Shown piece after piece: positions 1,611-38,289 of a stretch of DNA of 64,000 nucleotides (positions are counted from its first letter, which is position 1; each line of letters starts with the position of its first letter). The notes below the pieces were generated by a model, which was given only the letters and a program-made list of their open reading frames with translations, did no database searches and was not told the DNA's origin. Source of the DNA: Spisula solida (lineage: Eukaryota > Mollusca > Bivalvia > Venerida > Mactridae); NCBI GenBank assembly GCA_947247005.1, contig OX365955.1, forward strand, positions 1,932,001 to 1,996,000. The letters are read 5' to 3'. Position numbers and translations under genes: made by a program.

Positions 1611-1827
1611 CTTTAAAATCATTATTTTTCGTGGGAGTTTAAGTTGAATTTTCGTTGTTAAACTCGACTACGAAATTCTAATGGCCACAAATAAATGAAG
1701 TCCCAAATCATACATAACATGGTTGTACCTTCTCATGTTTGTAATCCACAAATTGACTACCCCTCGAAAATAGATTTTTATCAAAATCCACGAAATTGTA
1801 TACCCACAAAAATATGTGATTTTACAG
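1611..1827. mobile_element. TA-flanked MITE (CTGTAAAATCA family), copy 1
   Basis: About 217 bp with a degenerate left end (CTTTAAAATCATT) and right end GTGATTTTACAG, flanked by TA on both sides. Same family as 20361-20570, sharing the internal motifs ACGAAATT and CCCACGAAAATATGTGATTT. Non-coding. Its right end runs directly into the 31-bp minisatellite. Confidence 0.7.
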
Positions 1828-3230
1828 TATACAGGGCTTGTATCCTTATAGTACTCAGTATACAGGGCTTGTATCCTTATAGTACTCAGTATACAGGGTT
1901 TGTATCCTTATAGTACTCAGTATACAGGGTTTGTATCCTTATAGTACTCAGTATACAGGGTTTGTATCCTTATAGTACTCAGTATACAGGGTTTGTATCC
2001 TTATAGTACTCAGTATACAGGGCTTGTATCCTTATAGTACTCAGTATACAGGGCTTGTATCCTTATAGTACTCAGTATACAGGGCTTGTATCCTTATAGT
2101 ACTCAGTGTACAGGGTTTGTATCCTTATAGTACTCAGTATACAGGGTTTGTATCCTTATAGTACTCAGTGTACAGGGTTTGTATCCTTATAGTACTCAGT
2201 ATACAGGGTTTGTATCCTTATAGTACTCAGTGTACAGGGTTTGTATCCTTATAGTACTCAGTATACAGGGTTTGTATCCTTATAGTACTCAGTGTACAGG
2301 GTTTGTATCCTTATAGTACTCAGTATACAGGGATCCTTATAGTACTCAGTGTACAGGGTTTGTATCCTTATAGTACTCAGTATACAGGGCTTGTATCCTT
2401 ATAGTACTCAGTATACAGGGTTTGTATCCTTATAGTACTCAGTGTACAGGGTTTGTATCCTTATAGTACTCAGTATACAGGGCTTGTATCCTTATAGTAC
2501 TCAGTATACAGGGATCCTTATAGTACTCAGTGTACAGGGTTTGTATCCTTATAGTACTCAGTATACAGGGATCCTTATAGTACTCAGTGTACAGGGCTTG
2601 TATCCTTATAGTACTCAGTATACAGGGATCCTTATAGTACTCAGTGTACAGGGTTTGTATCCTTATAGTACTCAGTATACAGGGCTTGTATCCTTATAGT
2701 ACTCAGTATACAGGGTTTGTATCCTTATAGTACTCAGTGTACAGGGTTTGTATCCTTATAGTACTCAGTATACAGGGCTTGTATCCTTATAGTACTCAGT
2801 ATACAGGGATCCTTATAGTACTCAGTGTACAGGGTTTGTATCCTTATAGTACTCAGTATACAGGGTTTGTATCCTTATAGTTCTCAGTATACAGGGTTTG
2901 TATCCTTATAGTACTCAGTATACAGGGTTTGTATCCTTATAGTACTCAGTATACAGGGCTTGTATCCTTATAGTACTCAGTATACAGGGCTTGTATCCTT
3001 ATAGTACTCAGTATACAGGGTTTGTATCCTTATAGTACTCAGTATACAGGGCTTGTATCCTTATAGTACTCAGTATACAGGGTTTGTATCCTTATAGTAC
3101 TCAGTATACAGGGCTTGTATCCTTATAGTACTCAGTATACAGGGCTTGTATCCTTATAGTACTCAGTATACAGGGTTTGTATCCTTATAGTACTCAGTGT
3201 ACAGGGCTTGTATCCTTATAGTACTCAGTA
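1825..3230. repeat. 31-bp minisatellite, about 45 copies
   Basis: Unit CAGTATACAGGGTTTGTATC followed by CTTATAGTACT (31 bp). Variants are TTTG/CTTG, TATAC/TGTAC, and a shortened 26-bp unit where the block reads CAGGGATCC. The array lies in the UMPS gene downstream of exon 5 (minus strand). Short open frames read across it are repeat artefacts. Confidence 0.97.
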
Positions 3231-3538: not shown

Positions 3539-3701
3539 AGCTTTAACTTTTTTAGCCAGTGAGTCACCATTTCCGAGATTGGGTTGTCTCGGAACTTCAA
3601 ATCTGTTCTCGGCAATAAACTTCAAAACTTTGTTAAACATCGTCTCATCAATTTTTCCGTGTTTCTTTAAGACTGACACCAGCTGCGTCATGGTAATAAT
3701 G
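3539..3701 (-). CDS. UMPS: UMPS exon 5 (interdomain linker)
   Basis: 163 nt, acceptor tttctag and donor GCT/gtaagt. It reads (S)[18 protein letters not shown], then [19 protein letters not shown] and a polar stretch ending SLAKKVKA. This matches the helical linker after OPRT in animal UMPS (pattern LSKMLEIL...KRFIQEN). It ends in phase 0. The next exons (OMP decarboxylase) would be to the left; no OMPDC motif was recognised on the minus strand between 1 and 3538. Confidence 0.88.
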
Positions 3702-6700
3702 CTAGAAATATAAACAATAGGGTTTCATAATCCGACAAAAAACACAATAGATGATGGAAATTAATCAGACAGGTAATGTCAATCAATCATTGACTTAACC
3801 AAATTGCATTGGGGTTTAACCTGGCACCGTTAATACATTTTGTTTGTCCTGTAAACAAGGCATATATTAGGCAGAAATATTTTAGATTTCTACTACAGTA
3901 CAACCTCCCCATAGCGATCCTCTGTAGAGCAACAACCTCCCCATAGCGATCCTCTGTAGAGCAACAACCTCCCCAGAGCGATCCTCTGTAGAGAAACAAC
4001 CTCCCCAGAGCGATCCTCTGTAGAGCAACAACCTCCCCAGAGCAATCCTCTGTAGAGCAGCTACCTCCCCAGAGTGATCCTCTGTAAAGCAGCAACAACC
4101 TCCCCAGAGCGATCCTCTGTAGAGCAACAACCTCCCCAGAGCGATCCTCTGTAGAGCAACAACCTCCCCATAGCGATCCTCTGTAGAGCAACAACCTCCC
4201 CAGAGCGATCCTCTGTAGAGCAACAACCTCCCCAGAGTGATCCTCTGTAGAGCAACAACCTCCCCATAGCGATCCTCTGTAGAGCAACAACCTCTTTGTA
4301 GAGAAACACCCTTTGGGATCTGAAAATATTGGCCATTGTGTAGAGGTGGTTTCTCTTAGAGGTTGAATTTAGATGTTGTACTGGTCATTGTGTAGAGGTG
4401 GTTGCTCTCAGAGGTTGAATTTAGATGTTGTACTGGCCATTGTGTAGAGGTGGTTGCTCTTAGAGGTTGAATTTAGATGCTGTACTGGTCATTGTGTAGA
4501 GGTGGTTGCTCTAAGAGGTTGAATTTAGATGCTGTATTGGCCATTGTGTAGAGGTGGTTGCTCGAAGAGGTTGAATTTAGATGCTGTACTGGTCATTGTG
4601 TAGAGGTGGTTGCTCTAAGAGGTTGAATTTAGATGCTGTACTGGCCATTGTGTAGAGGTGGTTGCTCTAAGAGGTTGAATTTAGATGCTGTACTGGTCAT
4701 TGTGTAGAGGTGGTTGCTCTAAGAGGTTGAATTTAGATGCTGTACTGGTCATTGTGTAGAGGTGGTTGCTCTAAGAGGTTGAATTTAGATGCTGTACTGG
4801 TCATTGTGTAGAGGTGGTTGCTCTAAGAGGTTGAATTTAGATGCTGTACTGGTCATTGTGTAGAGGTGGTTGCTCTAAGAGGTTGAATTTTGATGCTGAA
4901 CTGGCCATTGTGTAGAGGTGGTTGTTCTAAGAGGTTGAATTTAGATGCTGTACTGGTCATTGTGTAGAGGTGGTTGTTCTAAGAGGTTGAATTTTGATGC
5001 TGTACTGGTCATTGTGTAGAGGTGGTTGCTCTAAGAGGTTGAATTTTGATGCTGTACTGGTCATTGTGTAGAGGTGGTTGTTCTAAGAGGTTGAATTTAG
5101 ATGCTGTACTGGTCATTGTGTAGAGGTGGTTGCTCTAAGAGGTTGAATTTTGATGCTGTACTGGCCATTGTGTAGAGGTGGTTGTTCTAAGAGGTTGAAT
5201 TTAGATGCTGTACTGGTCATTGTGTAGAGGTGGTTGCTCTAAGAGGTTGAATTTAGATGCTGTATTGGCCATTGTGTAGAGGTGGTTGCTCTAAGAGGTT
5301 GAATTTTGATGCTGTACTGGTCATTGTGTAGAGGTGGTTGTTCTAAGAGGTTGAATTTAGATGCTGTACTGGTCATTGTGTAGAGGTGGTTGTTCTAAGA
5401 GGTTGAATTTAGATGCTGTACTGGTCATTGTGTAGAGGTGGTTGTTCTAAGAGGTTGAATTTAGATGCTGTATTGGCCATTGTGTAGAGGTGGTTGCTCT
5501 AAGAGGTTGAATTTAGATGCTGTACTGGTCATTGTGTAGAGGTGGTTGCTCTAAGAGGTTGAATTTAGATGCTGTACTGGTCATTGTGTAGAGGTGGTTG
5601 CTCTAAGAGGTTGAATTTAGATGCTGTACTGGTCATTGTGTAGAGGTGGTTGCTCTAAGAGGTTGAATTTAGATGCTGTACTCTAGTTTTTTATGAGGAC
5701 TACTCTGAAAGTTCAAGAAATAATCTTTCCAAGGTCTTGGTTCAGGGCAGTTACATCCCTTAGTAATAATGATGTCACATCGATTATGGACAAATGAAAT
5801 CGATGATCAACAATGTCAGTTTAATTCAATCAATCATCGAGTAAACTCAATCATCGTTTAAACACTTTAACACATTTTAGTGAAATTGCCAAAAAGTAAG
5901 AATTTTCATGAGGGATTTATTTTCCCTCTTATTTTTTTGCTCATCACTTTAACAACCATGCTGAACATTAATTCATTTTTAGAAGTATGAGCATGTAATG
6001 TCAGGAACTACTTTAGAATAACAAATATGCAAATTTTACAGTCAACTCTCATTATCTCGAATTTAGCGGTACCGTGAAATTTACTTCAACGTAACAAAAA
6101 TTCAAGGTAAGTTCGAGAGCCATTTTTCGCTCTGGTCATAGTCACCGTAGTCACGGTTACAGTACAGGTTAAAACAGGTTTTCTCATGCAAGGAATTTCC
6201 CCGTATTTTTATGAAATTTCGCAACCATTCCTTCTTCCCATGTTTGGCTTTCTGGTGTGTTCCCCATTTCTAGCTCCAATGTGTTGTTTAGGCAAGAGAC
6301 AGAATGACATACAGTTAACTCTCGTTATCTAGAATTTTACGGGACCGTGGAAATTACTTCGACATATCGAAAATTCGAGATAGAATTTCCGGTATCAAAG
6401 TTGCAAGTTTTCTAGTTTCTGTCATTTTACGTCGCCATATTGTTACGGTCGTAAGAACGACATGTTCCTGAGAATTGCTTGTTTTTATATTTATGTACAT
6501 GTATGTATTCCTCCTCGAGAAAATGCATTTTATTCATTTTTGTTTGTGTAAGTTGTGTTGTTTGCATTAAAATATGATGATATATATATACTCATCAGTA
6601 AGTGTAGTGTATGACATGCTAATGTACGTGTATGACTGAGGAAGTGAAGTAAAACTTTAAATACCAACACCCTCGATCTTACATGTAAATTAAGCTGTAG

Positions 6701-9700
6701 GCCTACATCATAAATACATGAGAAATAAAGATAAACAGTTTATTATTTACTGTAGTGATAGTTTCTTTTTTGTATTCTAGATCGTGTTCATGTATATAAA
6801 TTCAAACATAATGTATTAATTATTATTTTTACAAACAATTGTTCGAGATGACATGTTCATTGATGTTTGGACTTAACTCAAATCTTTATGACATGTTTGT
6901 GCAAATTATTGCAAACAAATATTTGTTCAACAATGGAAGGCACGAAAATTACAGGTAAATCGAAGATTTCAGACTGGCGAGATGAGAAAAACATTTGACG
7001 CTATATGATCAGACTTCGACCCACCTTCGAGATGAACAATAGATTTAAAGTGCGAATTAGTAAATCGGGACCAAAAAAATAATTTGACATAACGAAAAAT
7101 TTGAGCGGAATTCGAGCCGAAACTTCGAGATAGGTCTCAACATGTCATATAAGACAAAGAAGGAGAAAAATCGGGCCTTGAAAAAAAACTTCGATGTAAC
7201 GGAAAATTCGATATAAGCAAGTTTGAGATAACGAGAGGGGACTAAAAAATCTCGAGATAACGAAAAACTTTGAGACTTACTTCGAGATAAGTGACAAGAT
7301 TTCATATTGACAAAGAAGAAGAAAATTTGGGACTTTTTCGAAATTATGTAAAATTCAAGCAAGTTCAAGATAATGAAAGTTGAATGTAACTTTAAAATAA
7401 TTACAAATTTGCTAAGTTTTGACGTCATGAAAATAACACATGCTAAGTTTTGACATCATGAAAATATTACATGCTAAGTTTTGACGTCATGAAAATATTA
7501 CAAGCTAAGTTTTGACATCATGAAAATAATCCATGCTAAGTTTTGACGTCATGAAAATAATACATGCTAAGTTTTGACGTCATGAAAATATTACATACTA
7601 AGTTTTGATGTCATGAAAATTATACATGATTTTACATAACTGTGTTTTATTGCGACTATGCATTAAAATAGAACCTGTGTAAGTTGACCCCGTCGTTACG
7701 TAAGCGCTCTGTCCCACCTTGTTCTCGCTCCAACAGTACCACAGCATCTTTCACAACCAGCCCGTACTCGTGTAGTAACTGAAATCAAAGCACAGAAAGC
7801 ACGTCAGTTGTTAGGCTGAACTAACAATATTTTTTGTTTCCCTTCCCTGACCCTAGCAGATTTAGAATGGGTAGGTAGGTTAAATAAATTTTTTGGAATT
7901 GTTTCAGAATGAAAGTTATTGGTTAAGATAATATAATGCAAATAATGAAATTTAGTAATAACTCCAAGGTGAAAATCAATGGAACTTCTAACTTTAAAAT
8001 AGGTACAAAGTAATAAGTATAAACAAGCCTTTTTACAGAAAATAACATTTTTATCCCAATTTTTCATAAAAAAGATATCAATTCAATGTGGGCAATAAAA
8101 TATTTTGCGTACAGCCGTTTTTTTCAGGTAGGTAGTGTATGAGGAAACAAACAATATTTAAATGAAGGCTTTATTCGATATTTTTTTGAAAATCGGACAT
8201 AACTGTTTTTTATTCTCTCATGCGAAGCTTATTCTCTCATTGTGAAGCACCTTTATCACTTTCACTGCCAAATTTACCCTACACTGCCAACTTCGACTTT
8301 ATTCGAAAATAGTGTGTGGTATGATTTAACTAAAAAAAAATTGAAACAAGAGGGCCATTGGCCCAATAGCGCTCACCTGATGACTAGCAGTTTAGGCTGA
8401 ATCAGTGACCTGGTAGCCTAGTGACCTTGTTTTTGGTCCAGATGACCCAGTTGCAAACTGGACCTAGATTACATAAAGCCACACATTGTGGCCAAGTGTT
8501 ATTAATGTCACATAAAAAATGTGACCTCTAGAGTGTAAACAAGGTTATTCTTTAGTGTGACCTTGTGACCTAATTTTTGACAACAAATGACCCATTTACG
8601 AACTTGACCAATATTTTTATAAGACAAACATTGTGATCAAGTTTTATATAGATTAGGTAAAGCAGGTGACCTCTAGAGTGTTAACAAGGTTTTACTTCAA
8701 TGTGACCTTGTGACCTAGTTTTTTACCCCACATGACCAAGTTGCGAATTTGACCTAAATTTGATAAAACCACATATTGTGACCATGTTTCATTCTAATTA
8801 CATCATAAATATGACCTCTAGAGTGTTAACAAGGTTTTTCTTTGATTTGACCTGGTGATCTAGTTTTTGACCCCAGATGACCCAATTACGAACTTGAACT
8901 AAAATTTCATAGAGACATACATTTTAACCAAGTTTCATTAAGATTATGTAAAAAATGTGACCTCTATAGAGTGTTAACAAGGTTTTTCTTTGATGTGACC
9001 TAGTGACCTAGTTTTTGACCCCACATGACCCAATTATGAATGTGACCTAGATTTCATAGAGACATACATTGTGACGATGTTTCATTAAGATTATGTAAAA
9101 AACGTGACCTCTAGAGTGTTAACAAGGTTTTTCTTTGATGTGACCTAGTGACCTAGTTTTTGACCCCAGATGACCCAATTATGAACGTGACCTAGATTTC
9201 ATAGAGACATACATTGTGACGATGTTTCATTAAGATTATGTCAAAAATGTGACCTATAGAGTGTTAACAAGGTTTTTTGATGTGACCTAGTTTTTGACCC
9301 CATATTGACCCAGTTATGAACTTGACCTAGATTTCATAGAGACAAACATTGTGACCAAGTTTAAAAAAGATTAAATGAAAATTATGACCTCTAGAGTGTT
9401 AACAGTCCAATTGTTGACGGAGGTTGGCGCACAGTGAACAGTGGACGTGGGTGTGACCTTGAACTTTGAGAAAGGAACCTGGGGGTCAGGCATGACACTT
9501 CGCCTAATGGGGGTTAACATTCATGCCAAGTAAAAGAAAGATTGGTCAATGTATGACAAAGTTACGGTTCGGACAAGCTTCATTTTGACCTTTGATCTCC
9601 AACACTGACCTTGACCTTTGAGATAGGATCCTGAGGATTAGGCCTGACACTCTGCCTCATAGAGGTTAACATTCATGCCAAATATAAGAAAGATTGGTCA

Positions 9701-12700
9701 ATGAATGACAAAGTTTGGCTCCGGACAAACTTCAATTTGACCTTTGACCTCCAACTGTGACCTTGACAATGAGATAGGAACCTTGGGGTTGGGCATGACA
9801 CTCCGCCCCATGGAGGTTAACATTCATGCCAAATATAAGAAAGATTGGTCAATGTATGACAAAGTAAGGCTCAGGACAAGCTTCAACTTGACATTTGACC
9901 TCCAACATTGACCTTGACCTTTGAGATAGGAACCTGGAGGTTGGGCATGACACTCTGTCTCATGGAGGTTAACATTCATGACAAATATAAGAAAGATCAG
10001 TCAGTGTATGACAAAGTTAGGCCCCATACAAGCTTCAATTTGACCTTTGACCTCCAACAGTGACCTTGACCTTTGAGATAGGAACCTAGGGGTTTGGCAT
10101 GACACTCCGCCTCATGGAGGTTAACATTCATGCCAAATAATATTATAAGAAAGATTGGTCAACAGCCTTCCTATAGTTACTATAATTGTTAATAAAAATT
10201 ATCTATTTTCCAAAAAAAAAAAGATCCCTACACAGTTTTAAACAAGAGATGTTTGTAAAACACGAATGCCCCCATGGCAGCCCAATAATCAGAAATGGTT
10301 TAGGTCACAGTGACCTTGACCTTTGAGCTACTGACCTCAAAATCAATAGGGGTCATCTACTGTTGATGACCAACCTTAATGTACAGTTTGAAGATCCTAG
10401 GGCAAAAAGTTTGTGAGTTATTGAACGAAACATTTGAATAGTCAGAAATGGTAAAGGCCACAGTGACCTTGACCTTTAACCTACTGACCTCAAAATCAAT
10501 AGGGGTCATCAACTGTTGATCACCAACCTTCATGTGAAGTTTTAAAAATCCTTGAGTTATTAAACGGAAACCATTTGGTCTACCAACAGACCGACAGACA
10601 GACAGAAAGACATATGCAAAGCAATATACCCCCTCATCAAAGCAATATACCCCCTCATCAAAGCAATATACCTCCTCATCAAGGATAGTGGGCATAATAA
10701 ATGACAAATCGACATTCATTTTATAATGAAACCCTTGAACACATACAGATGCTGACTCATCCCCTTTAAAGGGGCATGCCCAGAAACTGGAGTGTCTTGG
10801 TCATCCAACAAAAGTGCGTTTATCACTTGTAAAACCAACTATTACCGAAGTCAAAGGAAAATTTGACTTAACAATTTACTCTATAACGATATTTTGTAAA
10901 TCGATTTGAATAAAAGGCTGTTAGCCTTTTATTGAAGACAACGATATTTAGTTATTCTGGAAATATTTTTTACAAACACGAGGGCCATTGGCCCTAAAGC
11001 GCTTACCTGATGACTAGCAGTTAAGGCAGAATCAGTATTTAAGTTATGATATGACCTTAATATTTGATATTACAACTACACACTTTACAGCTAGGTTTTA
11101 TAAAGATGAGGTAAAAAATGTGACCACTAGTGTTGTCTTTGTTGTGACCTTGTGACCTAGTTTTAGACCCAGATTTCTCACTTACGAACTTGACCTAGAT
11201 TTCATAAAGACAAACATTGTGACCAAGTTTCATAAAGATTAGGCATAAAACGTGGCCTCTAGATTGTTAACAAGGTTTTTCTTTGATGTGACCTAGTGAC
11301 CTAGTTTGTGACCCCAGATGACCCACTTGCGAACTTGACCTAGATTTCATAGAAACATACATTGTGACAAAGTTTCATTAAGGTTATGTCCAAGATGTGA
11401 CCTCTAGAGTGTTAGCAAGGTTTTTCTTTGATGTGACCTAGTGACCTAGTTTTTGACCCCAGATGACCCAATTATGAACATGACCTAGATTTCATAGAGA
11501 CATACATTGTGACGATGTTTCATTAAGATTATGTCAACAAGAGGGCCCAAAGGGCCCTAGGTCGCTCACCTGTCGTACTAGTGCATGCACACCCCTATGG
11601 TGACCCTACACGTTTTCTGAATAAAATTTAAGGATATTCAGCCTCTAATGCAAATTTTTTAATGATTTGACCATGTGACCTTGTTTTTGACCCCAGATGA
11701 CCCAAAATCGAATTTGGCCTAGATTTTGTTGACATGATCATTGTGACAAAGTTTCATAAAGATTAAGTTGAAATTGTAACCTCTGGTGACTACACAAGGT
11801 TTTTCTATGATTTGACCTATAATGTAAACAAAATATTTTCCTCCATAAAACTGTACAAATACATGTTATAAAGACAAAACAATACCTAAACACTTAAAAA
11901 AAAAAAAAAGTATGGCTCCAGTGGGGTTTGAACCCACGACCCTCAGGAAAAGATCAATTGACATTGTGATTTTTGTAATTGACATTGTGACTTTGTTTTT
12001 GACCCCAGATGACCCAAAATCGAACTTGACCTAGATTTTGTGGAGATGATCATTGTGACCAAGTTTCAAAGATTAGGCCAAAATTGTGACCTCTAGAGAG
12101 GACACAACCAAATTGTTGACGGACGGACAGACGGACGGACGAAGTGTGATCACAAAAGCTCACTCTGTCACTTTGTGACAGGTGAGCTAAAAATGTGACC
12201 TCTAGAGTGTTAACAAGGTTTTTTGATGTGACCTAGTTTTTGACCCCATATTGACCCAGTTACGAACTTGACCTAGATTTCATAGAGACAAACATTGTGA
12301 CCAAGTTTAAAAAAGATTAAGTGAAAATTATGACCTCTAGAGTGTTAACAGTCCAATTGTTGACGGCGCATGGCGTATGGCAGACGGCGCACGGTGGACG
12401 ACGGACAAAAGGGTGATTACAATAGCTCATCTTGAGCACTTCGTGATCAGGTGAGCTAAAAACTAGCGTGATATTTCGTAACTTTTTACAGGGTTTTCAT
12501 TATTTGACTTAGGTATTAAAATGATGCCAATTTGATTGCTATTCGAGACACTTCAGTTCCAGGGCATGCCCCTTTAAACAAAGAACCAGACAACCTTGTT
12601 TCATTTGTAAACTCTTCATTTTCATAGTAGACAAAATCATTCAACAACAACCAAACTTATAGACATTTCCACATTGATTAAAACCTGTCTCGCTACGTAC

Positions 12701-15700
12701 TGTACACTTAGGATAATACAGTATAAGCAGTATTTACACGTTTCAAGGATGAACTTAACAGAGATGTTGATCAGATACGTTTTTGCAAATCAAAGATACC
12801 AACAGACTAAGATTCGAATTTGTCAAAATTGCGACTAGTGACATGAGATTTAATCAACTGCCAGAAAGTCTATAAAATACTGAGCAGGATTGTAAATGGA
12901 AGGTGTATTCGCTGCTGTTTTTGCTAATCAATGTTCCTAACCCTTTCCTTCAGAATTAGATACAACATTCTGTTTCCTAACTCATTACTCCATATATACA
13001 ACATTTCTCTATACCAACCCATAACTCCATACACTATGCCGAATTTCTAATTGGCCACCCTATAAAATTTGATACTGTGTGATATATTCAATCAATACCT
13101 ATGAAATTGCGTTATGTTTTCATTACACACATTACATTAGATAGGTATAGTTTTACCTTGACAGTTTCATACACACTACATTAGATAGGTATAGTTTTAC
13201 CTCGACAGTTTCATACACACTACATTAGATAGGTATAGTTTTACCATGACAGTTTCATACACACTACATTAGATAGGTATAGTTTTACCTCGACAGTTTC
13301 ATACACACTACATTAGATAGGTATAGTTTTACCACAACAGTTTCATACACACTACATTAGATAGGTATAGTTTTACCTCGACAGTTTCATACACACTACA
13401 TTAGATAGGTATAGTTTTACCACGACAGTTTCATACACACTACATTATATATGTATAGTTTTACCTTGACAGTTTCATACACACTACATTAGATAGGTAT
13501 AGTTTTACCTGGACAGTTTCATACACACTACATTAGATAGGTATAGTTTTACCTCGACAGTTTCATACACACTACATTAGATATGTATAGTTTTACCTCG
13601 ACAGTTTCATGCACACTACATTAGATAGGTATAGTTTTACCTCCACAGTTTCATACACACTACATTAGATAGGTATAGTTTTACCACGACAGTTTCATAC
13701 ACACTACATTAGATAGGTATAGTTTTACCTCGACAGTTTCATACACACTACATTAGATAGGTATAGTTTTACCACGACAGTTTCATACACACTACATTAG
13801 ATAGGTATAGTTTTACCTGGACAGTTTCATACACACTACATTAGATAGGTATAGTTTTACCACGACAGTTTCATACACACTACATTAGATATGTATAGTT
13901 TTACCTGGACAGTTTCATACACACTACATTAGATAGGTATAGTTTTACCTTGACAGTTTCATACACACTACATTAGATAGGTATAGTTTTACCTTGACAG
14001 TTTCATACACACTACATTAGATAGGTATAGTTTTACCTTGACAGTTTCATACACACTACATTAGATAGGTATAGTTTTACCACGACAGTTTCATACACAC
14101 TACATTAGATAGGTATAGTTTTACCTTGACAGTTTCATACACACTACATTAGATAGGTATAGTTTTACCACGACAGTTTCATACACACTACATTAGATAG
14201 GTATAGTTTTACCTTGACAGTTTCATACACACTACATTAGATAGGTATAGTTTTACCTTGACAGTTTCATACACACTACATTAGATAGGTATAGTTTTAC
14301 CACGACAGTTTCATACACACTACATTAGATAGGTATAGTTTTACCTCGACAGTTTCATACACACTACATTAGATAGGTATAGTTTTACCTCGACAGTTTC
14401 ATACACACTTGATCCAGTGGTTACAACATCTTCGACCACTAAACACACATCGCCAGCGTTATATTTGCCTTCGATCATTTTCTTTGTCCCATAATCCTTC
14501 GCTTCTCGTCGTCGTATCAACATCGGCACGTTGTTGTCTACCGACATCACCTGAAATTGTAACACATTAAATCACTCATAATTACCTCTCTTTATATTCA
14601 TTAATTATGCACAAGAGTCATTCATTGCGGAGTGAGTATAAAGGCTTGCTTGAAATATCCATTTTTTGGAGATATGGATGGTTCTTTCTTTGTCTGACTC
14701 TTGTGTGTATGGCTGGGTGATGCCGCAGTTTTTGTGTGGCTTTGGATTGTCTGTGCACTACAGTATTCAGTAATAATTTGTTGTAGAAATATTTTTTGCT
14801 CATGGGTGATATTCAATATTGATCTTATTGAAACTGAGAATAAGGATAGCCAATCATATCGCCTGTTACTGACCAAGAGTTTAATATGGTGTGATCTGAT
14901 TGGTTGTCCTTATCCATAAGTCAAGTAAGATTAATCCTGGAATACTTAACAGGGGTTCTACTGAGGCATAATCTCCAATCCTGAAAACGAGTCGCAAGTC
15001 TGTTTCGGGTGCCATTAGCCGTACATCCCTACCCCTTTACTATGTTTCAAACATTGTTTTATTGTTAAAATTCAGATTATGGAACTTCAAATGACCATAA
15101 CTTTGTCAATTCTTTGAATTTCTTCATCAAAAAACTTTGATTTTGTGCAGAAAAGATCATTCTTCCCAATGCAACATTTTTAATTTCAACAGATTTCCGG
15201 ATTATTCTGAAATTGTAGGACCCCTGACTAAAAGATCAATGTAGTCCTGGGGAACATTTCCTTGATTAACACATACTGGGTTATGGTCAGTGAAAGCGAG
15301 AATTTTAAAATGATCATTTCAATGATCGTTATCATTTTCAAGCGCAGCACGCTACTAGGTTATACTGCAAATCACGTTCTAGCAGGGCCCTAATTTTCCA
15401 TTTTTAGCTCACCTGCCACAAAGTGGCAAGGTGAGCTTTTGTGATTGATTTTTGTCCGTCGTCCGTCTGTAAGACATTTCAGCGTTAACACTCTAGCACT
15501 TTCAATTTTGCTTTGATCTTCATCAAACTTGGTCAGTAGTTGTATCTCAATGAAATATAGGTCAAGTTTGAAGTTGGGTCATGTGGGGTCAAAAACTAGG
15601 TCAAAAGGTCAAATAATAGGAAAACCTTGTTAACACTCTGGTGGCCACATTTTTGCGTTTATCTTCATAAAGTTTAGTCAAAATTATAATCTTGGTGACC

Positions 15701-21700: not shown

Positions 21701-24700
21701 AAATCCAGGATATAAAGAAGGGAAAAGTAGGGAAAAGCATGGAAAACTTGTTTCAATACTCCACCGTTTTACAGGATCTGTGGAAATTGAGGGAAAACAA
21801 GGGAAAACAGTGGAAAAAACTTTCCAGGATATAAACTAGGGAAAAGTAGGGAAAAGCATGGAAATCTTGTTTCAATACTCCACTGTTTTACAGGATCTGT
21901 TGAAATTGAGGGAAAACAAGGGAAAACTGTGGAAAAAAACCTTTTCTATCTGTCTCCCTGCTTTTCCCTGTTTTTTTCCAGAGTCTTACATTATTTTACA
22001 TAAAATTCTCTGTTTCAATACTCCAGTCTTTTACAGGGTTTTTCCCTGTAAAACGGAGGGAGAGTTTACAGACGGGAGTACGGAGAATTGGACATGACTC
22101 CCGACCTTCTATTAGCATAATTTAACAGCTGATATAATGTCTATTTATAATCCTGGTGGTATGTTTTCATGGAAGTATCACAAAAACACTCGAGGTGTAA
22201 TACCAGCACAAACTGAAGGATCGATAAAGCACAAATTGCTCGGGAAATTTATATAGTCAACGCAAGAAACTTGTAATATAATCTACAGGTGTAAAACTGT
22301 TCATGCATAAAGATCACGGTCAGGTCAATATCTCCCTGTCGTCAACTCTCTATACTCATAAACAAGCAAGGGTATTAAGCTACCTTTATATATTCACAAG
22401 ACGGCGTTCAATAAACGCTAAGACCCCTGTGGAAGCTTTGTCCATAAAAAACTAGCTAAATCAATCCCTTAATAAAAAGTCTTGAATGATCTCCCTTGAT
22501 AAAGAGTTTTGAATCATCTTCCTTGATAAAGAGTGTTAAATGATCTCACTTGATAAAGAGTGTTGAAGGATTTTCCTTGATAAAGATTCTCGCTGATCTT
22601 CCTTGATAAAGAGTCTTGAATGATCTCCCAAGATAAAAAGTCTTGAATGATCTCCCTGGATAAAAAGTCTTGAATGATCTCCCTGGATAAAAAGTCTTGA
22701 ATGATCTCCCTTGATAAAAAAAGTGTTGAATGATCTCCCTGGATAAAAAGTCTTGAATGATCTCCCTGGATAAAAAGTCTTGAATGATCTCCCTTGATAA
22801 AAAAGTATTGAATGATCTCCCTGGATAAAAAGTCTTGAATGATCTCCCTGGATAAAAAGTGTTGAATGATCTCCCTTGATAAAGAGTCTTTGAATATTTT
22901 CCCTTAATTTGTAAGTCTGTTTCCATAATTGGATTGTCTCCCCATATGAAATAATTGATGATTGACATGTGATAGGGGCATGAGAAGAGTAACAAAGGAT
23001 AAACACACTCATAAATCCTCAGAAAAGAAGAAATATATGTTACTTGTGTCTGAGGACAAATACATGGCTAGCCAGAAAAGTTCTGTCTCACCGCAGCTTA
23101 AAAATACACCACTTAGGGGATGCAGACATAAATTGTCTCGATGATCTAACCACAGGGTATATTACTTTATTTAATGCTAATTGGTGAGATATGGAGTTCT
23201 ATCAGTGAAATAAAACCTATATCAGTCACTGGTTATCATCTACAATGTGACTGATATAAGCTCCGCCCCCTCATAGGGACTACTTTAATTTACCAAAATC
23301 TCAACACTAAAATGTCCGTAACTTTTTTTATTACTGAACGGAAACATGTCATGTGGGGGTTTTTATTTTTAGTTAGACCATTTCCTACAAGTTGGTGTAT
23401 GATTTGATGCAAAATTCTCAAAAAAGCCGTTTTCACATATTCACCATAATCCAAGATGGCGGATTTTGAAGTGAAAAATAAGAATGGAATAACATATTCA
23501 TACGTAGCCTAACCACAGTGGTAATTTGGCATAAACAGTACTAGTTTTGACACCATATAAGCATTAAATAAATAGAATATTTGTTGTTTTAATTGAATAT
23601 GGTTAATATCTCATATTGTAGTGATAAAATTTTAATATTTTCACTCGCGCTACGCGCTCTCGAAAATATTGAATTTTATCACTACACGATGAGATATAAA
23701 CCATATTCAATAAAAAAAACAAATGTCCTCTATATATTAGAATGTTATAGTGTTTTTCATAGTTTCCACGAAAAAGTTGCACCAATCATGAAGGTGCAAG
23801 ATGCTGAAGACCATCAGATGCAAAATGAGAAAGAAAATAACTAGAATTATCACTGTCGTGAACAGGGCCCCGTGGTAGCATGTCGTAAGAGGGGGGAGGG
23901 GAGGAGTGTAGGAGTATAGTGGGGTTGCATAATTATCAGCGCTATAAGTTTCTGTACTCAGACACAATAACAAAGTCATATCTCAAACTTTCATGTGTTG
24001 ATGCCTGAAATAAAGTAATTCACTCCCTTCTAAAATTCAATTAAAGTTGTTTGACAAGCGCAGGTTTAATTTCCTACATTGAAACCATGATGAACTTTGA
24101 CTTTTATAAAGTTTGGAAATATCTTTGACAGACTAAAATTGCACACTGAATTCATGAAATCATGACATTGGTTCATGATATTGGTTTCATTGACATTGCC
24201 CTGTTCCTTATCGGCCAATATTGTTTGCAAGATGGAAATACACAAAACAGAACTACATTAATCTGTTTGTTTTGTGTGCAAGTGTTAAGGGGAATCAGTC
24301 AAAAATTATTAAAGTTTTAAAGAGTTGTCGCCCTTTGCTAAAAATGTGTATATTGTTTTTGCTCCACATACATGTACTTATTGTCGTAGTCAATAGAAGT
24401 AAGTATAGCAAGTTTCATTTGAATATCTTGAAATATCTTTTAACTTTGACCAATGTTATAGTTTTTGAAGCTGAAAAGGGGCATAAGTAAAAAATTATCA
24501 AAGCTAGAGTTGTTGCCCTATGCTAAAGATAAGCGTATTATCACTGGCAATAATTATAGCAAGTTTCATTTAAATATCTACTATCGTTGTGAAATTACTA
24601 AGAAAAAAGATGAAAAATTAGTAAATTTGAATTTAACAAAGGGCCACAATTCTTCCAATATTGTAGCTAGAGTAATGTAACTTGTCATAAAATAGTGTTT

Positions 24701-27700
24701 GTTGTTGTGAGCTTATGTTTACAGTGATTTTTTTTGGCTATTTTTAGGGCCGAATACAGGCCCCTTCCCCTAGCAAAAAAACCTCCATTTTTCCAAAAAA
24801 ATCATAATTTTTTCCCAAAAAGTAGGCATATTTTCCCCCTTTTGTGCTCGCAGGTTTCAAAGCAACAACAGTTTATATGTAGCTGTTTTTAAGTCGAAAC
24901 AATGTATTTTCTAACTTGCAAAGGTTGTTGCCACATATGAATAGTGTATTATCAGCAGAAAATACAAAATATGACCACTTTTAACCCAAACAAACTTTTT
25001 TAATAATTCCCAAATTTGCGAATTGTCGCGCTAAAATTTCCCAATTTTAAAGGCACAGGCCGCTAAATTTTCTTCAAGAAAAATCACTGGTTTAAAATCT
25101 CAAGTTAATAGCTTCAATGGTTTTCAAGTTATCAAGAAAAAAAGCTGAAAATTGATGAAAATTTGAATTTTACAAAGGGCCATAACTCTTCCAATATTGT
25201 AGCGAGAGTTATATAACTGGCCATAAAATAGCGTACTGTTGTTGTGAGCTTATGTTTAAAGTTTGAAGTCAATATAGTCCGTTTGCGGCGAAAGAAATCG
25301 TCTAAAATGAAGATTTCTCAGTATTTACTGCACCTACAAGTATGAGATTTTGCACGAGTAAATGAAATGTATCTACCTAATATACAATAATTAAATCTAA
25401 GCAACATCGGACATGTGTGAAAAAAGTTTTGTTCATAAGTTCTATGTAAAATATTTGTAGTTTACGATAAAACTTCATGTTAGTAGACTCGATACACACA
25501 ACAGCCAGTTGTATGGTCACGTGACACGTCTAACGGTAAATTTACGTATTTGTAATCTATCTAATATGGCAAATACGAGGCCCGTCTGTACATCTATACT
25601 GTCTATGTGTATCATATTTTCGGGTCTAAACGTAGAAATGGCTTGCGTCTAGCAGCCTCATTCTCGAACTATAAAAACACGGATTTTGCAGCGTCTTTAA
25701 ATGATTTTGACTGCTTAATATTAGGCATTCTTCAAACGTGTTTATGAATGTCGATTTCAGACTAATCCTAAATGTTTGGGTAGGTGTATATTACTCAATT
25801 ATTTAGGACTGGTTCAGTCATAAGACTACATGTCATTGCGCACATAAACATTACAATGCTTTTATTAAGTTCTTAATTTAACATTATTATATATGTGTAT
25901 GGCCATGTATAAGTATCGATATACATAGCTTATGTAGTTTAGTGAATAAGGGTTTGGTTTTCACTGCTTTACCGCGTTAGTACTTGTTTTATACATAATC
26001 TGTATACACACAAGCGACATACCTAAATAAATCGACTTATATGGGCCTCATAAATTTCGCTTTCATCACAACAATGTTAATCTCGCTGATCACGGATTAT
26101 AACAGTTAATAAAAAGACAGTTAAACATCAATGGAATACCAGATTTCCTCCCTGCGTTAAAGTGTTCAAATGCAGGTAATATCAATATACAATTAAGAAT
26201 AAACTTGTTTAAATAAGTAATTAAAAATTATGAAATTTAAAATGGGAGTAGGTAGAATGTAATTACGATTCTACGTAAATTTTTATCAACATCTGATGAA
26301 CAGATTTTTAACCATTCAAAATTTAGACGATTTTTTTCGCTGCAAACGGGCTATACCTATAATGGTTTTCAAGTTATTAAGAAAAAACTTGAAAAATGTG
26401 GACGGACGGACAGACAGGGTGATTACAATAGGGCACACAAAATTGTTTTGCGGGGCCCTAATTATCTGAGTCTCTCAAGCACAATTCAGTTAACAGGAGG
26501 GCTCCAAGGGCTATAGGGCGCTCACCTGTCCTAGTAGTTCATGCAGACCCATTAATGGTAGCCTCTATTGCATGTACAAGGTTTTTACAGTGTCTTATAT
26601 AGCAACCTTGCAATTTACATCACATAGACCCAATGGCATATTGAAGTTTAAGCCAAGGTTTGTCTATGATTTGACCTAATGACCTAGTTTTTGACCCTGG
26701 ATGACCCAATATCGAAAATGACCTAGATTTTGTTGAAATGATCAGTGTGACCAAATTACATTAAGATTAGGTCAAAATTGTGACCTCTAGTGACTATGCA
26801 AGGTTTTTCTACTATTTGACCTTGTGACCCAGTTTTTCACCTTGCATGACCCAATATCAAACTTAACCTAGATTTTGTTCACATGATCATTGTGACCAAG
26901 TTTCATAATGATTAGGCCAAAATTGTGACCTCTAGTGTCTACGCAAGCAAATTGTGGACGGACAGATGACAGACGGACGTACTACGAGTGATCACAAAGC
27001 TCACCCTGTCACTTTGTGACAGATGAGCTTAAAATATACAGAATATAATATCTATATATAGATGCAAGTGACAGACCTGAATAAACAGACTATACATACT
27101 GAAGCTATGGGTAGAGCTGTGTAAGGCACTCCACATATGGATACAAACTTCTCTGCTTTCTTTGATGCCTTCCATAATACTTGAGAAACTTCTCTCTGAA
27201 AAGTTAATATGGGGTCAGACAGGAAATGCAGCCCTCAACTTAACCAGCCGAGACAGAAAACATAAAAAAACCATACAAGGCACAATGCCCTCAACTGAAC
27301 CAGCCGAGCACAGAATTTACAGTGTATTCTTACCCATAATAACTTAACCATCTACAAGGAGTAGAACCGGCAACTTCTCCACATGTGGAGTAAAAATTCA
27401 ATGTTCAAAGAGGTTAACAGTAGACAAGTATTTGAAGTAAATGTAGTATCCCGTTTAACTATGGCCTGTTGTATTGGGTTCCTATTATTTACTTAAATGC
27501 ACGGAGAAGAATGATGCACCTATCAGTATTTTGCCCCATGGGGAGAGGCGGGCAGACACAGGACGTTACATTAGAAAGAAGACGATTCAAGACAGACAGG
27601 AATTTGACACCCCAAATGATTCCGGGTCCGGGGAAAATAAAACTTTGGCCGGATTTTCAGTGATTTTTTCCTTCTTTATTAGGGTCCTGAAAACGGACCT

Positions 27701-28810
27701 TTTCCCAATTGCAAATAGGCTATAATTTTCCCAAATTTGAATGGAGAAATTCCCAATAAACAATTGAAAAAAATAATTTTCAAAATCGGACATAAAATGA
27801 TAAAGTTATGAACATTTTTGACAAGAGGTCAAGCATAAAAGCTCAAAGAAACCAGTAAACATTTACATGTCATTCACATGTAATCTCTTTTTCTGTTTTA
27901 TTTGGCCTTTCTGCTTCATGGAAATTCCCAATTTCAAGTTGTCATGACGTGAAAATTCCCAATCTGAACGGACCCGGACCCTTTCCTAAAGGGGCAAAAA
28001 AAATCACTGGATTTTATACCCCAATTTGGAGAATTTTGACGCCGAAAAAAACCCAGACAACTGTATAAAGATGGCTGTTTGTTTGATACACCAAGCCTCT
28101 CCCACTTTGAGGATAAGGCATAATGTTTGGCTATAGAGTTAATTTTGGAAGTAGACCCAAAAAAAAAAGAAATTGTCAAATTCTGCTGGCTCTGCCTGCC
28201 ACTACCCCTCGCCCCCCTGGCAAAATATATGTAGATGCATGATGGAGAGTTTTAAATGTAAATGGGAAGGATCAAGGGTACATGTAGTAATAGACCAGCC
28301 TCCCTTTGGCGATTGGCAAGTGCAGCTCATCAGGATTGTTATCCTCTAATTTACTCTATCTGTTACTGTAATCTGGAATTGTTCCATTTAATAACCTGCT
28401 CGGTACTTATATAATGTCTCACACTGATGACTAAACAGAAAGTAGGCCTACACATTTTATTATAGAAGACTTGGAAATAAAGCATAATTATAAGTGTTTA
28501 TTTTGCCTCTGTGCAACTTTAGTTTGTTTCAGACGAATAGCTCGCACGCTACGAACAAACATGTAGTAATCAAGCTTACAATCAGCTATTCATATGACAT
28601 TACGCAATCACATACATGTGTACATGTATGGGTCGCGAAAATAGATGACAATCATAATATTACCATCAAATTTGGATATGAGACGATGACACGCAGATCA
28701 AAGTAAGCGGGCGATTGAATACCACTCTTCAACTTAAAGTCACCAAACTTCACGCCCTCCACTTCGTATAATTTCAGAATAAGCTGCTCCAAACATTCGT
28801 CTTCTTGCAT
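3539..28810 (-). CDS. UMPS: UMP synthase, partial gene (5 exons; OPRT domain and start of linker)
   Basis: UMPS is the bifunctional cytosolic enzyme for the last two steps of de novo pyrimidine synthesis: orotate plus PRPP to OMP, then OMP to UMP. Five exons, 28810-28664, 27195-27100, 14550-14389, 7778-7675 and 3701-3539 (147, 96, 162, 104 and 163 nt), join in frame to 224 codons, all with GT donors and AG acceptors. Together they align from memory with animal UMPS from the N-terminus through [37 protein letters not shown], the PRPP loop [11 protein letters not shown] and LLEREQGG into the linker. The OPRT half (about 210 residues in animals) is complete. The OMP-decarboxylase half is not in the window and should lie to the left of position 1. 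Introns are about 1.5, 12.5, 6.6 and 4.0 kb and are full of repeats. No stop or frameshift is seen in the exons, so the gene looks functional. Confidence 0.93.
3895..4296. repeat. 32-bp minisatellite, about 12 copies
   Basis: Unit GATCCTCTGTAGAGCAACAA followed by CCTCCCCAGAGC, with CATAGC and CAGAGT variants. Because 32 is not a multiple of 3, all three minus-strand frames stay open and give repetitive pseudo-proteins; these are not genes. Confidence 0.95.
4320..5684. repeat. 52-bp minisatellite, about 26 copies
   Basis: Unit of 52 bp starting GGTCATTGTGTAGAGGTGGT and continuing TGCTCTAAGAGGTTGAATTT to AGATGCTGTACT. Copies are close to identical, with GGCC/GGTC and TGCT/TGTT variants. It follows the 32-bp array with almost no gap and its core is the reverse complement of that array's core. 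Confidence 0.96.
5685..6036. other. Unannotated intron sequence
   Basis: Low-complexity AT-rich intron sequence between repeat blocks; nothing recognisable. Confidence 0.6.
6039..7386. mobile_element. TA-flanked TIR element with a nested pair of similar ends
   Basis: Outer ends CAGTCAACTCTCATTATCTC (6039) and the complement of TACATTCAACTTTCATTATC (ending 7386), both next to TA. A second inverted pair of the same type sits inside: CAGTTAACTCTCGTTATCT at 6312 and the complement of AGTCCCCTCTCGTTATCTC near 7225-7243. The interior has several further GAGATAACGAAAA-type motifs. CAGT...ACTG ends with TA duplication fit pogo/Tigger-like Tc1-mariner MITEs. No transposase is seen. Confidence 0.65.
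7410..7630. repeat. 31-bp tandem repeat with CRE-like sites, 7 copies
   Basis: Unit TGCTAAGTTTTGACGTCATG followed by AAAATATTACA, about 31 bp. The centre is TGACGTCA in copies 1, 3, 5 and 6, TGACATCA in copies 2 and 4, and TGATGTCA in copy 7. Located 45 bp downstream of the UMPS exon 4 donor in the minus-strand sense. Confidence 0.93.
7675..7778 (-). CDS. UMPS: UMPS exon 4
   Basis: 104 nt, acceptor gatttcag and donor AG/gttcta. It reads [20 protein letters not shown] followed by [14 protein letters not shown], matching the end of the OPRT domain (family pattern DAIVLLDREQGG) and the start of the interdomain linker. Phase 0 at its 5' end; two bases (AG) are left over and complete a Ser codon with the first base of exon 5. 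Joined to exon 3 it gives TVE-LLHEYGL, one residue shorter here than the human enzyme. Confidence 0.92.
7821..8160. mobile_element. MITE-like foldback repeat, third copy
   Basis: Left end ACAATATTTTTTGTTTCCCT and right end GAGGAAACAAACAATATTTA are inverted copies; GGGTAGGTAGG and CAGGTAGGTAG blocks lie inside as in the copies at 117-895. The minus-strand open frame inside has no resemblance to a protein family. Confidence 0.6.
8345..9450. repeat. GTGACCT-rich bivalve-type repeat, truncated copy
   Basis: Begins AACAAGAGGGCCATTGGCCC and consists of about seven diverged units of roughly 145 bp, each with GTGACCTAGTGACCTAGTTT, GACCCCAGATGACCC and GAGTGTTAACAAGG. The usual end (GGTGAGCTAAAA) is missing; the sequence switches near 9450 to the next repeat type. 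Confidence 0.8.
9450..10170. repeat. About 152-bp tandem repeat rich in TGACCT half-sites
   Basis: Four to five diverged units containing GACCTTGACCTTTGAGATAG, GGTTAACATTCATGCCAAAT and AAGATTGGTCAATGTATGAC. Perfect TGACCTTTGACCT occurs at 9738-9750 and 10041-10053; TGACCTTGA at 9606, 9909 and 10061. Confidence 0.85.
10250..10720. repeat. TGACCTTGACCTT dispersed repeat
   Basis: Two related halves with GTCACAGTGACCTTGACCTT and CTGACCTCAAAATCAATAGG, then a short tandem AAAGCAATATACCCCCTCAT. A reverse-orientation relative lies inside the LTR element at about 33440-33800. Confidence 0.75.
11537..12190. mobile_element. Related repeat element nested in the previous one
   Basis: Starts AACAAGAGGGCCCAAAGGGC and ends with the hairpin AGCTCACTCTGTCAC-TTT-GTGACAGGTGAGCT followed by AAAA. 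The host repeat is continuous across it: ATTATGTC before and AAAATGTGACC after, as in the uninterrupted copy near 9235. Any duplication is hidden in the A run. Confidence 0.75.
11911..11950 (-). repeat. tRNA T-arm-like SINE fragment
   Basis: On the minus strand GTGGG-TTCAAAC-CCCAC forms a perfect 5-bp stem and 7-nt loop with a B-box (GGTTCAAACCC). It is followed by TGGAGCCATA and a T14 tract that would stop RNA polymerase III. The D-arm and anticodon half are not found, so this is a truncated tRNA-derived sequence and not a tRNA gene. Confidence 0.5.
12463..13120. other. Unannotated UMPS intron 3 sequence
   Basis: AT-rich unique-looking intron sequence; nothing recognisable. Confidence 0.6.
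13121..14409 (-). repeat. 44-bp minisatellite made of the UMPS exon 3 / intron 3 junction, about 29 copies
   Basis: In the gene's sense each unit reads GTGTGTATGAAACTGTCGAG, then gtaaaactatacctatctaatgta split by the exon border. The first 20 nt are identical to the end of UMPS exon 3 and the rest to the start of intron 3. The base pair before gtaaaa varies between copies: GAG, AAG, CAG, GTG and others. The array touches the real exon. Confidence 0.97.
14389..14550 (-). CDS. UMPS: UMPS exon 3 (PRPP-binding motif)
   Basis: Fifty-four codons, acceptor atttcag and donor GAG/gtaaaa. It contains [20 protein letters not shown] (flexible catalytic loop region with the Arg and Lys residues) and the type I phosphoribosyltransferase PRPP-binding loop [11 protein letters not shown] with the paired acidic residues. 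The last 20 nt of the exon and the first 24 nt of the following intron are the unit of the tandem array at 13121-14409, so many extra copies of this exon end lie just downstream in the intron. Confidence 0.93.
14551..15404. other. Unannotated UMPS intron 2 sequence
   Basis: No recognised gene or repeat; short overlapping frames on both strands at 14618-14919 look random. Confidence 0.5.
16079..16222. repeat. Long palindrome, about 140 bp
   Basis: Left arm GTTGATTTTGGTGTAAGATC and right arm GATCTTACACCAAAAATCAA pair over about 60 bp. TTTTCACGAGTGGCG and AGCCACAAGTGAAAA lie at the centre. Confidence 0.85.
16205..16505. repeat. Dispersed repeat, copy 2
   Basis: Near-identical to 955-1260, including AAAGCCCGGCGCCGTTGACG and TCCATAATCCATTGAAAGC. 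Confidence 0.7.
18060..18350. repeat. GGGAAAA-rich diverged repeat, copy 1
   Basis: Recurrent CAGGGAAAAGTAGGGAAA, TTTCCCTATTTTCCC and CTGTAAAA motifs. Related to 21570-22065. Non-coding. Confidence 0.6.
18500..20358. other. Unannotated UMPS intron 2 sequence
   Basis: AT-rich; no gene, repeat or exon recognised. Confidence 0.5.
20361..20570. mobile_element. TA-flanked MITE (CTGTAAAATCA family), copy 2
   Basis: 210 bp with inverted ends CTGTAAAATCA and TGATTTTACAG, flanked by TA on both sides. Related to 1611-1827 along its length. Confidence 0.85.
20573..21569. other. Unannotated intron sequence
   Basis: No gene or repeat recognised. Confidence 0.5.
21570..22065. repeat. GGGAAAA-rich repeat with a direct duplication of about 120 bp
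   Basis: Two direct copies (about 21700-21825 and 21826-21945) share GGATATAAA...AGGGAAAAGTAGGG, AAGCATGGAAA and CAATACTCCAC(T/C)GTTTTACAG. Reverse-complement relatives follow to 22065. Related to 18060-18350. Confidence 0.75.
22459..22895. repeat. 27-bp minisatellite, about 16 copies
   Basis: Unit GTCTTGAATGATCTCCCTGG followed by ATAAAAA. Unit length is a multiple of 3, so two minus-strand frames stay open as repeats ([13 protein letters not shown]); no evidence for a protein. Confidence 0.93.
23593..23710. repeat. Long palindrome, about 118 bp
   Basis: Arms TTGAATATGGTTAATATCTC and GAGATATAAACCATATTCAA. A GC-rich loop, CTCGCGCTACGCGCTCTCG, separates TAAAATTTTAATATTTTC from GAAAATATTGAATTTTA. 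Confidence 0.88.
24722..25089. mobile_element. CAGTGATTTTTT TIR element, copy 1
   Basis: 368 bp with ends CAGTGATTTTTT and AAAAATCACTG, flanked by GTTTA at 24717-24721 and 25090-25094. The sister sequence near 25246 (GAGCTTATGTTTAAAG) is the empty site. The internal TTTTTCCCAAAAA-type sequence has no coding capacity. Superfamily not assigned: the ends look hAT-like but the duplication is only 5 bp. Confidence 0.85.
25277..26351. mobile_element. Non-autonomous TIR transposon, 1075 bp, TATA duplication
   Basis: Ends GTCCGTTTGCGGCGAAAGAA and the complement of GCCCGTTTGCAGCGAAAAAA, inverted over about 35 bp, flanked by TATA at 25273-25276 and 26352-26355. Inside, no frame resembles a transposase. 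Confidence 0.88.
26492..27034. mobile_element. GAGGGC...GACAGATGAGCTTAAAA repeat element
   Basis: Starts AACAGGAGGGCTCCAAGGGC and ends with AGCTCACCCTGTCAC-TTT-GTGACAGATGAGCT, the same terminal hairpin as 11537-12190. About 70 bp from UMPS exon 2. Confidence 0.8.
27100..27195 (-). CDS. UMPS: UMPS exon 2
   Basis: A short 96-nt exon (32 codons) found by reading the minus strand: acceptor tttcag, then [17 protein letters not shown], then [15 protein letters not shown], then donor gtatgt. The [10 protein letters not shown] block is a hallmark of animal OPRT (the GVPxxxxPxA loop next to the active site). It is phase 0 on both sides and fills exactly the gap between exons 1 and 3. It is too short to stand out as an open frame. 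Confidence 0.93.
27658..28009. mobile_element. CAGTGATTTTTT TIR element, copy 2
   Basis: 352 bp, ends CAGTGATTTTTTCC and AAAAAAATCACTG, flanked by GATTTT on both sides (27652-27657, 28010-28015). Same family as 24722-25089. Lies in UMPS intron 1. Confidence 0.82.
28016..28663. other. Unannotated UMPS intron 1 sequence
   Basis: No repeat or gene recognised. Confidence 0.5.
28664..28810 (-). CDS. UMPS: UMPS exon 1 (coding part)
   Basis: Forty-nine codons from MQEDECLEQ to SYPNLM, then donor gtaata. It carries the OPRT N-terminal signature ([20 protein letters not shown]) that binds the substrate phosphate/orotate side and contributes to the dimer interface in the family. The ATG at 28808-28810 is chosen because it gives an N-terminus of about the usual animal length. 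The frame stays open upstream to another ATG at 28913-28915 (35 extra residues, no family resemblance), so a longer N-terminus cannot be excluded. The exon ends in phase 0. Confidence 0.9.
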
Positions 28811-32200: not shown

Positions 32201-32311
32201 GATTAGAAAACGAACCTTGGGAAACGTCGCAGACACAACGCAAAACACAATTATGATCATCGGTACTGGTAGTTCAGGGTAAGTGGTTACTTGTTACACG
32301 AATTACTAAAG

Positions 32312-33158: not shown

Positions 33159-33251
33159 ACTAAATTCATCCCATCACCTTGAAACCAGTGTTGGGATAAG
33201 TAAAAATGTGTCAATGCAGGTTCATTCCAAATTTTGCAGAAATAGCCTCTC

Positions 33252-34158: not shown

Positions 34159-34660
34159 CACAAAAAATATACCAAATTTAATTGGACTACAGAATGCCAG
34201 AAAGCGTTCGATTATTTAAAAAGCAGCTTATCAGCAGTACCTTTGCTAAGCTACCCGGATCCCAATAAACCCTATATTTTGCGGAAGCGTATTAGTTCAA
34301 GAAGAAGTCTTAGAAAACGGACAAAAAATAGAGAAACCAATTCATTTCTTGTCACATAGATTATCTACTACGCAACAGAAGTATCCGGTGGTAGTTAAAG
34401 AATGTCTTGCGATAGTGTACTCGCTATCAAAACTGAATAACTATTTGTTTAATTCAAAATTCATAATCAGGTCTGATCATCTTCCTGTCAAGACATTACT
34501 TAGCTCTCCAAGCAAAAACAGAAACATTTAAATATGGTCACTTAATATTGCTAGTTATGACTGTACTATAGAATACATTCAAGGGGTTAAGAACACTGTA
34601 GCCGATATGCTCAGTCGCAGACCTGATAGTGATAACGAAAAAAGTAATACTCAATGTCAT
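34159..34660 (+). pseudogene. pol: pol remnant: end of RT and RNase H
   Basis: Resumes in pol at KYTKFNWTTECQKAFDYLKS, then LSAVPLLSYPDPNKPYIL, the usual RT/RNase H junction of Ty3/gypsy. After a frame change come LSHRLSTTQQKYPVVVKECL and FIIRSDHLPVKTLL (RNase H, with the acidic and RSDH motifs), then GVKNTVADMLSRRPD, the normal RNase H/integrase connector. The RT catalytic YXDD part is absent. Frame breaks near 34280 and 34530. Confidence 0.85.
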
Positions 34661-38246: not shown

Positions 38247-38289
38247 CAATAGGATTACGTTACTTACTGGACTAACAAGAACTATCATT

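Follow-up and report, generated by a model that had tools for sequence, protein, structure and literature searches.

Introduction

What determines the choice of one 5' splice site among several comparable ones is an open question, and the account in PMC6002489 indicates that the intron-proximal donor tends to be favoured and that the reason for this preference is likewise open. The UMPS gene of the bivalve Spisula solida bears directly on this question, as it carries 29 and 31 near-identical donors in series at two of its exon ends within a single pyrimidine-synthesis gene. Which of these donors is likely to be used, and how the others may be tolerated, is the subject of this article.

The window is the whole stretch of DNA that was analysed, 64,000 nucleotides in length and equivalent to C13:1932001-1996000; coordinates without a prefix are window positions. 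Genome-wide searches covered 931,988,947 bases in 36 contigs.

The UMPS Gene of Spisula solida

Exons were located by tblastn with a human UMPS sequence as the query, and reading frames and donors were then placed by hand. The resulting gene lies on the minus strand and comprises 11 exons that encode 479 residues without an internal stop, with canonical splice sites throughout the model and with both the phosphoribosyltransferase and the OMP decarboxylase domains present. Identity with the human query extends to 239 of 476 aligned positions, and the closest relative among the 120 matches listed by a protein database search is that of Mactra antiquata (79% identity). Exons 1 to 5 lie inside the window, and exons 6 to 11 lie before its start. 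The features inside the window that concern the gene model are as follows.

28664..28810, minus strand: UMPS exon 1, from the ATG (tblastn with human UMPS; hand-placed frame and donor)
27100..27195, minus strand: UMPS exon 2 (tblastn, hand-set sites)
14389..14550, minus strand: UMPS exon 3, ending ...VYETVE (GTCGAG) (tblastn, hand-set sites, homologue alignment)
7779..14388, minus strand: UMPS intron 3, 6,610 bp (from the exon model)
7675..7778, minus strand: UMPS exon 4 (tblastn, hand-set sites)
3539..3701, minus strand: UMPS exon 5 (tblastn, hand-set sites)

Other elements were recognized by eye in the window. Positions 11905-11955, within intron 3, resemble the 3' part of a tRNA gene or a tRNA-derived SINE, and retroelement-like open frames (gag/pol-like and reverse-transcriptase-like) occur at 32273-38769, 49713-51600, and 54512-57197.

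Anatomy of the Exon 3 Donor Array

The exon 3 donor, GTCGAG/gtaaaa, is located at 14389/14388 on the minus strand. That exon 3 ends at GTCGAG, as the first-pass annotation had proposed, is supported by the junction with exon 4, which aligns without gaps both with human UMPS and across ten mollusc homologues (nine bivalves and one gastropod, chosen from the 120 matches listed). The same annotation had described the sequence around this donor as a minisatellite made of the UMPS exon end and its splice donor, and this description is borne out by Tandem Repeats Finder, which reports positions 13127-14409 with a period of 44, 29.2 copies, and 96% matches, and by hand parsing, which yields 29 full units, every one of 44 bp, running from 14408 to 13133 on the minus strand over a total of 1.28 kb. 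The unit can be written as GTGTGTATGAAACTGTCGAG followed, across the boundary, by GTAAAACTATACCTATCTAATGTA; the proposed division into 20 nt resembling the end of exon 3 and 24 nt resembling the start of intron 3 holds in all 29 units. The authentic donor is itself one of the 29, so the intron carries 28 extra copies rather than about 29 further ones.

14365..14408, minus strand: array copy 1, spanning the authentic donor GAG/gtaaaa with the final 20 nt of exon 3 and the opening 24 nt of intron 3
13133..14364, minus strand: array copies 2-29 (28 x 44 bp), all of which carry a donor-like GT
13093..13132, minus strand: distal array flank, beginning ATGTGTGTAATGAAAAC (read from the sequence)

At its start the distal flank is similar to the first bases of the unit, and it may have been the original slippage partner. 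A dispersed satellite that had landed at the boundary by chance was considered and is ruled out, the unit being found at the UMPS intron 3 locus only: a whole-genome search allowing up to three mismatches returned 31 matches, 29 of which constitute the array itself, and the two outside it carry three mismatches each (a reversed-unit control gave six matches).

Sequence Variation within the Array

The sequence immediately before the donor GT differs among units, with GAG in nine, AAG in eight, GTG in eight, CAG in three, and ATG in one. The mixture of AG and TG before gtaaaa noted at first pass is thus correct, 20 of the 29 donors being AG/GT and nine TG/GT. Variation is otherwise sparse: 28 of 1,276 array cells depart from the majority, 21 of them at donor positions -3 and -2, and five of the eight distinct substitutions fall within positions -4 to -2. 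In a simulated scan, a comparable cluster anywhere in the unit arose with P = 0.0009, and one CpG at -4/-3 may account for part of the clustering.

Positions -4 to -2 (unit columns 17-19) correspond to the final codon of exon 3. A coding stretch is here contained within a fast-evolving repeat. In the homologue alignment, this codon specifies Glu in Spisula, Ruditapes, Mercenaria, Sinanodonta, and Littorina, Gln in Mactra, Mya, Dreissena, Saccostrea, and Mytilus, and Asp in Solemya. The array variation therefore sits at a codon that differs between species, and the array in effect stores variants of that codon. Along the array, equal variants recur in excess at lag 2 (p 0.011, uncorrected) and at none of the other seven lags. 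In this array, as in the exon 8 array described below, the first two copies do not differ anywhere in the unit; their place in the row, rather than local sequence, must therefore decide between them.

Donor Arrays Elsewhere in UMPS

The 30 kb preceding the window start was examined for further UMPS arrays, and two additional donors proved to have been amplified.

C13:1923529-1925071: exon 8 donor array, 50 bp in 31 copies, before the window start
C13:1929867-1930353: exon 6 donor array, 41 bp in about 12 copies
7410..7628, minus strand: array of 31 bp in seven copies, starting 46 bp past the exon 4 donor, donor not included
C13:1919210-1919335: intron 10 array, starting 28 bp past the donor, donor not included

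The exon 8 unit consists of 30 nt of exon and 20 nt of intron, and its array comprises 30 units that match the core exactly, followed by a final unit carrying GTAAAG. In the exon 6 array, position -1 is A rather than G in the three copies adjoining the true donor. Donors thus lie inside arrays at three of ten UMPS splice junctions and acceptors at none of ten, and the remaining seven donors are without a donor-bearing array. More minisatellites are present in UMPS introns 5, 4, 4, and 2, away from splice sites (1825-3230, 3900-4294, 4334-5682, and 22465-22895, respectively).

The concentration at donors was assessed by placing the nine arrays of the gene at random in 20,000 draws, a tenth array past the 3' end being excluded. 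When overlap with an exon was limited to one unit, three or more donors were covered in 1 of 20,000 draws and two or more in 0.3%, whereas three or more were covered in about 14% of draws when arrays were allowed to swallow whole exons, so that the P value depends on the overlap constraint and is post hoc. The 0.3% obtained for two or more donors is the fairer figure because the exon 3 array prompted the search.

Choice of Donor and Its Consequences

The UMPS arrays are probably tolerated minisatellites of the mirage type known from amphioxus, generated by slippage, with the first donor in use. The 44 bp that straddle the end of exon 3 and the start of intron 3 were duplicated in tandem, probably by slippage or unequal exchange, and expanded to 29 copies, and the exon 6 and exon 8 donors were amplified separately in like manner. 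The array extends downstream of the authentic donor, which therefore remains the first after the acceptor of its exon. Copy 1 of the exon 3 array would be selected by exon definition (the acceptor, exonic enhancers, and normal exon length) or by first-come use, the other 28 copies would be removed along with intron 3, and an occasional use of later copies would produce mRNAs with a premature stop that are degraded.

The predicted consequences of using other donors agree with this scheme. Splicing at the second donor of intron 3 shifts the frame and leads to a stop at codon 159, and splicing at donors 3-29 leads in 27 of 27 cases to a stop in copy 2, at codon 151, even when the retained insert is a multiple of three. 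The first-pass annotation had expected downstream donors either to change the frame or to add codons; the predicted outcome is a premature stop in 28 of 28 cases. In seven intron 3 donor cases, the stop falls 819 to 2,031 nt upstream of the last exon junction, a distance at which we would infer decay of the mRNA. Over introns 3, 6, and 8 together, all 66 alternative donors tested (28 + 8 + 30, leaving out the three exon 6 copies with A at -1) break the frame, so that an intact protein needs the first donor; only this donor appears able to yield a working protein. Hidden microexons, in which each copy would supply TAG, 19 nt, and GT, were also considered and rejected: eight of eight distinct versions stop at codon 138, and the acceptor is poor by eye.

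Several observations count against the use of copy 1. Pairing energies computed with an assumed U1 end (in kcal/mol, GAG -6.9, AAG -6.8, CAG -8.3, GTG and ATG -5.3) place three of the 28 extra copies above copy 1, 16 about equal to it, and nine below; the authentic donor is not favoured by its local sequence. Were the intron-proximal donor preferred, the choice would fall on the last copy, and human IFI6 makes use of downstream repeat units. The persistence of an intact UMPS frame nevertheless suggests that position relative to the exon wins.

The arrangement could alternatively act as a dimmer, in which a sizeable share of transcripts would use later copies, meet a stop, and decay, with array length and the mix of CAG against GTG and ATG setting UMPS output and with alleles of different length differing in pyrimidine synthesis. 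The early stops that follow from every alternative intron 3 donor and the 19 copies that pair with U1 better than or about as well as copy 1 speak for such a device, and downstream units do serve as donors in IFI6 according to PMC4526556. The donors themselves show no sign of maintenance, given TG before GT in nine of 29 units and A at -1 in three exon 6 copies, and the RT-PCR results described for amphioxus suggest no interference (PMC3087553). We regard a dimmer as unlikely; of the two outcomes envisaged at first pass, and by analogy with amphioxus, the spliceosome would be likelier to ignore the copies than the array to tune UMPS.

It is far less probable that the copies form a U1 platform that aids the weak true donor or shields a long intron from premature polyadenylation, a purely inferred role. 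In its favour, the authentic exon 3 donor is weak, with A at +5, and all three unit lengths (41, 44, and 50 bp) are greater than the 35-nt footprint of U1 given in PMC6002489, hence neighbouring copies, and indeed all of them, could be bound simultaneously; counting against it, the seven other UMPS donors are without a donor-bearing array of this kind. An assembly artefact, whether a wrong copy number or a wrong array, is hardly credible. Tandem arrays are prone to mis-assembly, but the array is merely 1.28 kb long, its variants are interspersed among copies that are all 29 of equal length, and the assembly is reported to derive from 31x PacBio HiFi data with a QV of 62.8 (PMC11101916). The tolerated minisatellite with its first donor in use remains the preferred reading. 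The UMPS arrays would bring exon definition, first-come use, and proximal preference into direct comparison.

A Possible Donor Bias across the Genome

The recurrence at three UMPS donors raises the idea that minisatellites of Spisula solida are seeded preferentially at 5' splice sites and that acceptors are spared, which we hold as tentative and rather doubtful. A process tied to donors, for example transcription-linked breakage or RNA:DNA hybrids at exon ends, would then build arrays repeatedly. A bias of this kind across the genome is suggested by evidence that is mixed.

Minisatellites are frequent in this genome: 18 stretches of 10 kb, one fixed position being sampled per contig, contained 14 arrays (period 15-100, at least five copies). 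The consensus donor word AGGTAAGT, in tandem triples, gave 7,094 matches in the whole genome, ten times the 695 of the reversed word, against 382 for AGCTAAGT, a donor killed by one base. The numbers of distinct arrays were counted by eye among the matches listed and are lower bounds: at least nine for AGGTAAGT in the first 32.2 Mb of contig C1, at least 14 for the reversed word in 126.5 Mb (one of them a simple repeat; eight copies of one dispersed element are dropped, and the count is 22 if they are kept), at least 18 for AGCTAAGT in 386 Mb, and at least 34 for the acceptor word TTTTTCAG in 417 Mb. Counted as arrays the gap narrows: among these matches, arrays of AGGTAAGT are more frequent than those of the reversed word by a factor of 2.5 (p 0.03, or p 0.16 with the dispersed element retained), than those of the dead donor by 6.0 (p 1e-4), and than those of the acceptor word by 3.4 (p 0.003). 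As single sites, the donor word occurs eight times, the dead donor nine, and the reversed word nine in 274 kb, which are few counts. The genome-wide tandem search found no excess of the acceptor word TTTTTCAG (232 matches against 424 reversed), and also none of a second donor word, AGGTATGT (2,308 against 2,436 reversed; at least 18 arrays in 58.2 Mb among the matches listed).

The nine AGGTAAGT arrays among the matches listed have units that are all different. Their 5' flanks pass a crude acceptor-plus-open-frame test in three of nine cases, compared with 12-13% of random sites (p about 0.09), and UMPS exons 2-10 pass the same test in six of nine. A Pfam search with four of the flank peptides gave none above the cut-off, and PDB searches with two gave no match. 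Four flanks on contig C1 (L039, L042, L044, and L045) read as exon-like up to the donor of the first copy, although L039, exon-like by eye, fails the acceptor-plus-open-frame test; these four are candidate boundary arrays in other genes. With the genome-wide tests mixed, it is mainly UMPS that speaks for donor seeding. If the idea is true, this genome would amount to a natural competition experiment on donor choice, with dozens of locally identical sites offered to the spliceosome.

Comparison with Known Systems

Human IFI6, in which a minisatellite supplies several donors, was reportedly described by Turri et al. in 1995. Two of its downstream repeat units serve as donors, as presented in PMC4526556. 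UMPS resembles IFI6 in having an exon-end minisatellite whose units are donors. The use of downstream units in IFI6 leads to variant proteins, whereas the alternative donors tested in UMPS lead to premature stops, and none of them, neither the 28 of intron 3 nor the 66 over introns 3, 6, and 8, would provide a translatable variant.

The Rogers model, as outlined in PMC3087553, explains intron gain through tandem duplication of AG/GT proto-splice sites. UMPS shares with it the tandem copies and the AG/GT at many junctions, but differs in that the copies are contained in an intron already present, with exon 4 unaltered; the gene model contains no new intron bounded by two copies in this region, exon 3 being joined in frame to exon 4 over the 6.6-kb intron.

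The closest likeness is to the amphioxus arrays, on which Canestro et al. 2002 is said to be the founding paper. Tandem repeats across exon-intron boundaries are termed mirages in amphioxus (PMC3087553), where they are described in Adh3, the globins BflGb6 and BflGb9, and TnC, with PGBD5 similar (PMC3087553; PMC3902484). According to these sources, RT-PCR suggests that mirages leave regular splicing undisturbed, their length varies, somatically too, and they have been put forward as a source of new introns (PMC3087553; PMC3902484). The UMPS arrays are likewise made of boundary-spanning tandem units, many with AG/GT, in an otherwise ordinary gene; their units are of minisatellite size (44 bp in 29 copies, 50 bp in 31, and 41 bp in about 12) and span real exon-intron boundaries, with only about 3 nt of exon in the case of exon 6. 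The intact reading frame obtained with copy 1 argues for splicing that would be similarly undisturbed in UMPS, and the variation in copy number between individuals that the first-pass annotation expected of the exon 3 array is plausible. The differences lie in host, number, and position: UMPS has three boundary arrays in one mollusc gene, with 29 and 31 copies in two of them, whereas BflGb6 of amphioxus has six and three, and the UMPS arrays are at donors only, whereas amphioxus mirages occur at both boundaries. No boundary minisatellite of a mollusc was found in the openly licensed literature, which is weak evidence of novelty. With UMPS, boundary minisatellites are seen in a mollusc as well as in lancelets, three of them in one gene and always at donors.
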